A stretch of 49,697 nt of DNA from Dialister succinatiphilus YIT 11850 (GTDB lineage Bacteria; Bacillota; Negativicutes; Veillonellales; Dialisteraceae). Shown piece by piece: positions 19,743 through 21,490 of this stretch; within the stretch, counting starts at the first letter, position 1; every line of letters begins with the position of its first letter. Below the pieces are notes generated by a model. It was given only the letters and a program-made list of their open reading frames with translations, was not told the origin of the DNA and ran no database searches. A program made the translations under genes and the position numbers. Location of the stretch: assembly GCF_000242435.1 (NCBI RefSeq), contig NZ_JH591189.1:43420-93116 (forward strand), written 5' to 3'.

Positions 19743-19774
19743 TTGACAACAGCTATCAAGAGTGATACTATAAT
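19743..19774 (+). promoter_or_regulatory. Promoter of the tandem cobalamin-riboswitch unit
   Basis: TTGACA at 19743-19748 followed after 17 bases by TACTAT (19766-19771), overlapping a TATAAT at 19769-19774 (20-base spacer). Transcription would start near 19781, just before the first aptamer. Confidence 0.7.
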
Positions 19775-19794
19775 GACAACCGAATATGAAAAGA

Positions 19795-19972
19795 AAGGTG
19801 CCCTGAGGGCTTAATAGGGAAGACCGGTGAAAAGCCGGCACGGTCCCGCCACTGTAATGCGGAGCGAATCCAATGATGTCACTGAGAAATCGGGAAGACG
19901 GATAGCGAGGAAGCAGAGTCAGGAGAACTGCCTGTCTTATATCACCGTTTGAACCCACGAGCGATGGGAAGG
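19795..19972 (+). promoter_or_regulatory. Cobalamin riboswitch, first copy
   Basis: The conserved core GAAAAGCCGGCACGGTCCC followed by GCCACTG is at 19829-19853 and the B12 box AGTCAGGAGAACTGCC at 19917-19932. The aptamer then continues through a conserved segment ending GCGATGGGAAGG. Known members bind adenosyl- or other cobalamins and usually switch off B12 synthesis, transport or B12-independent isozymes. A terminator hairpin follows at 19990. The core of this copy is identical to that of the second copy over about 55 bases, so the pair arose by a fairly recent duplication. Confidence 0.93.
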
Positions 19973-19989
19973 GGATGTCGTATGGATGT

Positions 19990-20018
19990 CTCTTTGCCCT
20001 GGGTAAAGAGCTTTTTTC
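19990..20018 (+). terminator. Terminator of riboswitch copy 1
   Basis: CTCTTT at 19990-19995 pairs with AAAGAG at 20005-20010, followed by C and six T. It lies 18 bases after the aptamer, as an expression platform would. Confidence 0.75.
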
Positions 20019-20064
20019 ATGGGTTGAACATTCGGTTATTGAGGAGCACAATTTCATAAGTAAA

Positions 20065-20247
20065 GCAGGTGCCCATAAGGGCTTAATAGGGAAGACCGGT
20101 GAAAAGCCGGCACGGTCCCGCCACTGTAATGCAGAGCAAATCCAACAGAAGTCACTGAGGAAATTGGGAAGGCTGGAGGCGCGAGGAAGCAGAGTCAGGA
20201 GAACTGCCTGTTTTGTATCACCGTTTGACCTACGAGCGATGGGAAGG
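20065..20247 (+). promoter_or_regulatory. Cobalamin riboswitch, second copy
   Basis: Same organisation as copy 1: conserved core at about 20098-20123, B12 box AGTCAGGAGAACTGCC at 20193-20208, and the GCGATGGGAAGG tail. The variable arm between core and B12 box differs in sequence (20131-20185). No promoter is seen between the copies, so both lie on one transcript. Its own terminator follows at 20285. No cobalamin, transporter or B12-dependent enzyme gene lies downstream. Confidence 0.93.
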
Positions 20248-20284
20248 TGTGTATTCATAAAGCCGATTTCTTTGGCCTGCCTTG

Positions 20285-20317
20285 AATCCACCTTGTCTGC
20301 AAGGTGGATTTTCTTTT
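20285..20317 (+). terminator. Terminator of riboswitch copy 2
   Basis: AATCCACCTT at 20285-20294 pairs perfectly with AAGGTGGATT at 20301-20310, followed by TTCTTTT. Confidence 0.9.
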
Positions 20318-20326
20318 GCATACCCG

Positions 20327-20790
20327 CCGGGAGATGATGACAGGGAACATCATTTTCCCGGAAATCTTCCCACCCTCTATCATTCGATGTAACGCCTGAA
20401 GAAGGCTTTACATATACCTGTGGGGATCTCTCCATGGTTCATCTCCTTTTGGGTGATGGCGGTAAAAGGGAAATATCATCATCACCCACCCCGTTTACCA
20501 TACCTTCTTTATGAAGTTCCTATATATCGGGTGCTTCGGCACCACTCTGATACAGGGGGCTGCCCCCCTGAGATTCATCTCCCTTTGGCGATGGTCATAA
20601 AAGGGAAATATGATCATCGCTCCTTTTTACCATCCCTTCCTCCGGGAAGTCCTCATAAACCGGTGCGGCGCACCGGAAAGGCTCTGCCATACGCCTTCGG
20701 TGAAAGGCAGATGGCCTGTCATTTGGGTAATAGCATTCCGTAAGGATGTTATTATACAGGTTCTCATAGGAGCGCACTGCTCCAACCCCT
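20327..20790 (+). ncRNA. B12-riboswitch-controlled structured region with repeated hairpins, no convincing ORF
   Basis: Between the second riboswitch terminator and the terminator at 20794 there is no credible protein. Instead there are many hairpins: 20327-20361 (stems CCGGGA/TCCCGG and ATGATG/CATCAT), 20388-20412, 20451-20487 (GGGTGATG/CATCACCC), 20530-20543 (UUCG tetraloop), 20553-20570, 20587-20621 (GGCGATG/CATCGCT), 20636-20649, 20660-20676 (CCGGTGC/GCACCGG), 20680-20716, 20728-20754 (GTAA tetraloop) and 20769-20783. Three of them (starting 20327, 20451, 20587) carry AGGGAA in the loop. Two units of about 137 bases (from 20434 and 20571) are clear imperfect repeats. Function unknown; a regulatory RNA or a decayed region are both possible. 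Confidence 0.5.
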
Positions 20791-20793
20791 TTT

Positions 20794-20822
20794 GAAGCGG
20801 CTTGGTGTCGCTTCTTTTTTTG
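20794..20822 (+). terminator. Terminator closing the riboswitch unit
   Basis: GAAGCG at 20794-20799 pairs with CGCTTC at 20809-20814, followed by eight T. It lies just before the separate gpx promoter. Confidence 0.82.
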
Positions 20823-20852: not shown

Positions 20853-20944
20853 AGAACCATCAGATAGATAAATATCGTTTTACTTAGACATGGATTAGCC
20901 GGCGGCGCCGCCGCCTTTAGGGCATGAGAGCCCGGGAGGTTTAT

Positions 20945-21490
20945 ATGAACGTATACGATTTCAAAGCAGTGAACGGAAAAGGCCAGGAAGTTTCCCTGTC
21001 CGACTACAAAGGCAAAGTTCTTCTCATTGTCAATACAGCCAGCAAGTGCGGCTTTACGCCCCAGTTTGAAGGACTGGAAAAACTGTACAATGCCTACAAG
21101 GACAGGGGCTTTGTGGTGCTGGGCTTCCCATGCAACCAGTTTGCAGAGCAGGATCCCGGAAGCGACGGAGAAATCCAGGAATTCTGCCGCCTGAACTACG
21201 GCGTTACCTTCCCCATGTTCCGCAAGGGCGATGTAAGGGGAGACAGTGCACAGCCCCTTTTCAAATACCTGACAAAGGAAAAGGGATTCAAGGGTCTTGA
21301 CATGGACCATCCCAATGCCAAAGTCCTTCTGGATTTCATCAAAAAGAACTATCCCCATTTCCTGGATGATGATTCCATTAAATGGAATTTCACCAAATTC
21401 CTGGTGGGCAGAGATGGAAATGTGGCAGCACGGTTTGAACCCACCAAGACACCGGAAGCCATAGCGCCGGAAATTGAAAAACTGCTGTAA
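20945..21490 (+). CDS. Glutathione peroxidase-family thiol peroxidase
   Basis: A 181-residue peroxidase of the GPx family with cysteine, not selenocysteine, at the active site: C35 in [10 protein letters not shown]65 in GFPCNQF, W147-N148 in IKWNFTKF. C81 in EFCRLNYG fits the resolving cysteine of thioredoxin-dependent bacterial members. It reduces H2O2 or lipid hydroperoxides in the cytoplasm. The start at 20945 (MNVYDFKAV) is chosen because GGGAGG lies 6 bases upstream; an earlier in-frame ATG at 20924 would place that site inside the gene. A GC-rich stretch at 20898-20925 lies in its leader. Confidence 0.92.

Follow-up and report, generated by a model that had tools for sequence, protein, structure and literature searches.

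Repeated AGGGAA hairpins in Dialister succinatiphilus appear to belong to a B12-gated non-coding RNA that may act on the methylmalonyl-CoA mutase gene mutB2

Three hairpins with AGGGAA in the loop, found in the window (the whole stretch of 49,697 nucleotides that was analysed), appear to be parts of an autonomous B12-gated non-coding RNA of about 500 nt, which occupies roughly positions 20312-20820. From sequence comparisons we put the probability at a little under 60% that the linkers of this RNA block translation of mutB2 when B12 is missing. The following steps are envisaged. Without B12, RNA polymerase would pass both terminators of a tandem pair of riboswitches, and the RNA would be made. 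The RNA would consist of modules, mostly a CU-rich linker resembling TTCATCTCC followed by a long hairpin with the AGGGAA loop. Translation of mutB2 would be blocked by pairing of the linkers with its start region, including the Shine-Dalgarno sequence; mutB2 is the predicted gene for the large subunit of the B12-dependent methylmalonyl-CoA mutase at the head of the propionate operon. When B12 is present, the riboswitches would terminate transcription, no RNA would be made, and the mutase would be produced. We infer that the RNA is expressed, is turned off by B12, pairs in the cell, and represses mutB2.

The features of the RNA all lie on the plus strand. A promoter-like site at 19743-19771 agrees with the consensus at 10 of 12 positions and has TG before the second hexamer; it is no more than a consensus match, and 2 such sites were found where 2.2 are expected by chance. 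Two cobalamin riboswitch aptamers follow, at 19779-19949 (94.4 bits) and 20050-20225 (100.2 bits). Both are full-length members of RF00174 and score above its gathering cut-off of 31.5. The preliminary description had missed this tandem pair directly upstream of the hairpins, which reveals what kind of RNA the hairpins belong to. Aptamer 1 is followed by a terminator-like hairpin at 19990-20010, and aptamer 2 by one at 20284-20311, immediately 5' of which lies a possible antiterminator partner. In aptamer 2, the sequence 5' of the terminator can pair with the 5' arm of the terminator, and only 1 of 200 shuffles does so equally well; for aptamer 1, the antiterminator pairing is not clearly above shuffles (30 of 200 as good). 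B12 gating of the RNA is well supported, and binding of B12 would lead to termination, judging by the antiterminator pairing and the known behaviour of the riboswitch family. No other Rfam family reaches its gathering cut-off over the RNA, and matches at E up to 5 are far under the cut-offs. Elsewhere in the window lie a c-di-GMP-I riboswitch (RF01051, 29240-29315, 53.9 bits) and a T-box leader (RF00230, 30880-31090, 130.5 bits).

The hairpins were found where the preliminary description had placed them. Hairpin 1 (20327-20361) has the 8-base loop ACAGGGAA, with AGGGAA starting at 20342. Hairpins 2 (20450-20488) and 3 (20587-20621) share the 9-base loop AAAGGGAAA, with AGGGAA starting at 20467 and 20602, respectively. 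AGGGAA therefore lies in the loop as described but does not make up the whole of it, given that two unpaired bases precede it and one A follows it in hairpins 2 and 3. The stem change from GGTGATG/CATCACC in hairpin 2 to GGCGATG/CATCGCT in hairpin 3 is present in the sequence, and so are the GGTGC/GCACC hairpins. The surroundings do repeat, although the reported 137-base unit is not exact: the period is 135-136 bases, it covers the two later units, and hairpin 1 lies outside the repeat. A linker precedes hairpin 2 at 20433-20449, and a second copy of the TTCATCTCC motif precedes hairpin 3 at 20570-20586. In the later modules, a conserved linker of this type lies 5' of the hairpin, and the sequence 3' of it is rich in C and U.

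The 380-base hairpin region occurs once in its own genome, where a model of the hairpin finds only its three own sites with E <0.2; a repeat or mobile element was rejected on these two results. A phage origin was also rejected: the query, riboswitches included, gave one match in 50,697 records, and this covered 17% of it. On the minus strand, between 20329 and 20621 of the window, the units would encode short peptides with Phe-Pro. These are most likely a by-product of stem and loop, since the plus strand carries both the riboswitches and the terminators, and changes in the stems are compensatory.

Covariance models recover the hairpins in close relatives. A first model (R1), built from 13 hairpins, matches 9 of 12 genomes of family f1 and 11 of 61 genomes of the order. 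G018 and G021 were added by reading the sequence 3' of cobalamin aptamers in 15 chosen genomes, and together with the 11 matches of R1 they give 13 carriers, 9 of 12 in f1 and 4 of 4 in family f2. The RNA follows a cobalamin aptamer in all 13 carriers; the aptamers are tandem in 10 and single in G011, G012, and G021. In G011 an apparent decayed second cobalamin aptamer is seen on the minus strand about 100-150 bases after the single one, a possible relic of the tandem arrangement. A second model (R2), which combines linker and hairpin, matches 9 of 380 genomes of the class, all within f1 and f2. This search used strict filters and missed the carriers G004, G008, G010, and G011, so absence beyond f1 and f2 is not proven. 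A pattern scan of a genome collection returned 19 stretches, of which 4 are on contigs corresponding to G007, G008, G010, and G011 and 15 are in other taxa, about the number expected by chance (~15 by our own estimate). The non-carriers of f1 (G002, G006, and G009) are without any cobalamin riboswitch.

The RNA ends in a strong intrinsic terminator at 20794-20814. Among the carriers, an end terminator was detected by script in 10 of 11 RNAs and seen by eye in G010, G018, and G021. The next gene 3' of the RNA is an ORF at 20924-21490 that encodes a relative of glutathione peroxidase, scoring below curated cut-offs. The RNA could thus be viewed as a long B12-controlled 5' leader of this peroxidase gene, which is on the same strand and for which a peroxidase counterpart is also next in G003, G004, and G005. 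However, the strong terminator lies between the two, and other carriers have a different gene or a tRNA in this place (a 727-aa ORF in G001, a tRNA in G012 and G015, other genes in G007 and G008). Because of the terminator and the differing downstream genes, it is reasoned that the RNA is autonomous, and a peroxidase leader is highly improbable.

Conservation was assessed on 13 homologous RNAs (5687 bases, with the first 40 after the aptamer left out) against 500 dinucleotide shuffles. The 13 RNAs contain 32 copies of AGGGAA, compared with a mean of 1.9 and a maximum of 8 in shuffles. In 24 of these, the loop is closed by a perfect stem of 8 bp or more, compared with a mean of 0.014 and a maximum of 1, and each of the 13 RNAs has at least one AGGGAA in such a hairpin. 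In two f2 hairpins TGGGAA takes its place. The stems show strong compensatory change among the relatives: in the hairpin alignment 93.0% of cells are paired and 8 of 10 pairs have changed on both sides, and in the alignment with linkers the values are 97.8% and 10 of 13, counts that are favoured by choosing hairpins that fold, a bias absent from the shuffled-sequence test of AGGGAA. The hairpin has a covariation score of 0.651; shuffles reach 0.305, and sliding gives no more than 0.252. The earlier view that the structure and not the sequence was kept is thus borne out for the structure; for the sequence it is not, because no element varies less than the AGGGAA loop, and the single-stranded linkers are conserved as well.

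The proposed target was reached after nine kinds of B12-pathway gene had been screened. The start region of mutB2 reads TTAGGAGGAAGATGAACTCATG, and the linker CATGGTTCATCTCCTTT is predicted to pair with it from the Shine-Dalgarno sequence to the start codon; this pairing is a computational result. The linker before hairpin 2 is complementary to the ribosome binding site and start of mutB2 with -20.5 kcal/mol, a value equalled by 7 of 398 control sites. In 12 of 14 genomes, complementarity of the linker to the mutB2 start, scored as linker-only duplex energy, is in the top 0-3% of 398 controls, the excess over controls at a target start that characterizes a trans-acting small RNA. The number of controls as good is 7 in W, 5 in G003, 9 in G004, 7 in G001, 11 in G008, 7 in G010, 2 in G011, 3 in G018, 8 in G021, and 102 in G012 for f1 and f2, and 0 in G023, 2 in G025, 0 in G054, and 37 in G059 for family f4; in G012 and G059 the pairing does not stand out. 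Linkers of f1 and f2 were taken as the 18 bases before the hairpins (those of G018, G021, and one module of G004 by eye), whereas those of f4 were picked by eye after the idea arose. G005 (no mutB2 in two mutase hits), G007 (mutase split), and G015 (linker same as in G012) were left out, and one control that proved to be the opposite strand of the RNA was taken out. Other genes from the neighbourhoods tested in f1 have median ranks of 27-88%. Genus g4 (f1) carries a changed linker, TCATTTTCCTCC, which pairs with its own target over 12-15 bases free of gaps.

The core of the linker presumably resembles the 3' end of 16S rRNA, and several other starts in the own genome pair with the linker equally well. 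From this it could be argued that the RNA acts as a general anti-Shine-Dalgarno RNA with many targets, of which the mutase is only one. Compared with 28 controls that also contain AGGAGG, however, mutB2 is the best site in 7 of 10 genomes. In addition, own pairs of RNA and target do better than pairs swapped between species, with 24 of 20000 swaps as good for 13 species and, when each of nine genera is represented by one species, 2768 of 362880 permutations (p = 0.008), although the ranking and swap tests are not independent, since the RNAs and the targets are each related by descent. We consider general anti-Shine-Dalgarno action improbable. Repression of mutB2 through the linkers is to be read alongside results on the whole RNA. 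The duplex energy of whole RNAs is mostly ordinary and does not single out mutB2 (55 of 147 controls as good in W). The longest uninterrupted pairing of whole RNAs is rare (at most 12 of 147 controls) in 8 of 13 genomes; in the other 5, which include W, it is ordinary. Seven real control sites pair with the RNA of the own genome at least as well as mutB2. In the predicted fold the linkers show no unusual accessibility, with a mean unpaired fraction of 0.40 and 0.51 compared with 0.43 overall.

The occurrence of the mutase was surveyed with PF01642. Mutase genes of this family are present in all 13 carriers and absent in the three f1 non-carriers, which lack a B12 mutase, and 17 of the 22 genomes searched are positive. 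In 6 of the 13 carriers (G001, G003, G004, G008, G010, and G011) the RNA is located about 3-11 kb from a mutase gene. In the draft genome G007 the mutase gene (G007:C45:4053-5433) is broken by a stop or frame break. The cluster in the own genome starts with a CoA-transferase, mutB2 (mutase large domain), a B12-binding subunit, and MeaB, and continues with an ORF with an epimerase-like start (recognized by eye), mmdA, and mmdC, followed by mutA, mutB, and MeaB. No riboswitch lies in cis at mutB2 in the own genome, and a cis cobalamin riboswitch lies at mutA. Such a riboswitch precedes mutA in G000 (L111 1501-1673), G001, G018, G021, G023, and G025. The two mutases may therefore be controlled in opposite directions by B12.

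Family f4 (G023, G025, G054, and G059), a third family of the order, has a different short RNA about 60-270 bases after a single aptamer. This RNA has a small hairpin of the type GTA(T)GGGC(R)TAC together with a sequence complementary to the start of its own mutB2; in G054, 17 of the 18 bases of this sequence pair with the mutB2 start. A wider scheme may be drawn, in which mutB2 is repressed in trans at low B12, mutAB is under an opposite cis riboswitch so that isozymes are swapped, the AGGGAA hairpins recruit a novel RNA-binding protein in bacteria that have no CsrA, and f4 has its own version, a differently built RNA with a matching antisense stretch. As a whole this scheme is tentative and rather unlikely.

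Another way to read the hairpins is as a protein sponge, in which an RNA-binding protein is sequestered and titrated by the AGGGAA loops and the linkers serve just as spacers. Such a function would suit a loop that is invariant and recurs several times on stems that vary. CsrA sites have the form ANGGA, which AGGGA fits, and RNAs of the CsrB/RsmZ type carry repeated hairpins with GGA-containing loops. The AGGGAA hairpins are like them in offering several ANGGA loops. The difference is in the protein: CsrA was found in 0 of 60 genomes by a search that was positive in E. coli, B. subtilis, and T. maritima, and a CsrA sponge was rejected for this reason in spite of the ANGGA-type loops. An ANTAR site is formed by two adjacent hairpins with hexanucleotide loops, A in the first and G in the fourth place, and a linker of 5-12 nt (PMC3369931). 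The AxxG pattern agrees with this rule, and genes for an ANTAR regulator are present in 60 of 60 genomes; these include many without the RNA, and ANTAR presence does not track it. The loops have 8-10 nt, and the hairpins are mostly single and about 85-220 nt apart, with only one adjacent pair, in G004. A survey by script, which did not try a closed hexaloop, listed 27 AGGGAA hairpins with a stem score of at least 20 (11 RNAs); inspection of their letters shows that the bases flanking the hexamer never form a standard pair. An ANTAR sponge was rejected because loop size and hairpin spacing do not fit. In the model search no other AGGGAA hairpin was found below E 0.2 in the own genome, which leaves no mRNA that visibly shares the site. 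A sponge would also leave the linker complementarity without explanation. Despite the precedent of a cobalamin-gated sponge (PMC5821096), this reading is possible but on balance unlikely. The earlier suggestion of AGGGAA as a binding site is possible, but no binder was found, CsrA being absent and the pattern of an ANTAR site not being matched; the invariant loop may function in protein binding or in RNA stability.

Blocking of mutB2 by a B12-gated RNA would have relatives among known systems. In EutX/Rli55 of Enterococcus and Listeria, a cobalamin riboswitch and terminator control a non-coding RNA through which a B12-dependent pathway stays off when B12 is lacking (PMC5821096). The layout found here, in which a non-coding RNA is preceded by a cobalamin aptamer and terminator, is of the same type. 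The two differ in that EutX has a dual-hairpin ANTAR site at its end and titrates EutV, whereas the RNA described here has mostly single hairpins with longer loops and linkers complementary to an mRNA start. A further known system is AspocR, the antisense RNA of Listeria pocR. There, a B12 riboswitch controls an antisense RNA to a gene needed for B12-dependent metabolism (PMC9943018). AspocR is encoded opposite its target; here, the RNA and mutB2 are on different contigs (C3 and C2 of G000), an arrangement unlike that of pocR, and the RNA would pair through short repeated linkers only. In Veillonella parvula, a related organism in which a methylmalonyl-CoA mutase is under B12 control, a cobalamin riboswitch upstream of mutA represses it in cis with corrinoid (PMC9600662), while here the action would be in trans and on the other mutase. 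In another propionate producer, a 2024 study (PMC11575231) reports that cobalamin raises mutase expression although no riboswitch lies near the propionate genes, and states that an antisense-RNA mechanism was not investigated there. No report of the present RNA was found in open-licence papers, and the RNA would be a new twist on the idea of EutX/Rli55 and AspocR.

If the proposed mechanism is true, the RNA would be a vitamin-gated regulator in which the seed and the target site seem to vary together between genera, while the loop, without a known binder, is invariant. B12 control of propionate production in Negativicutes would then extend beyond enzyme activation.
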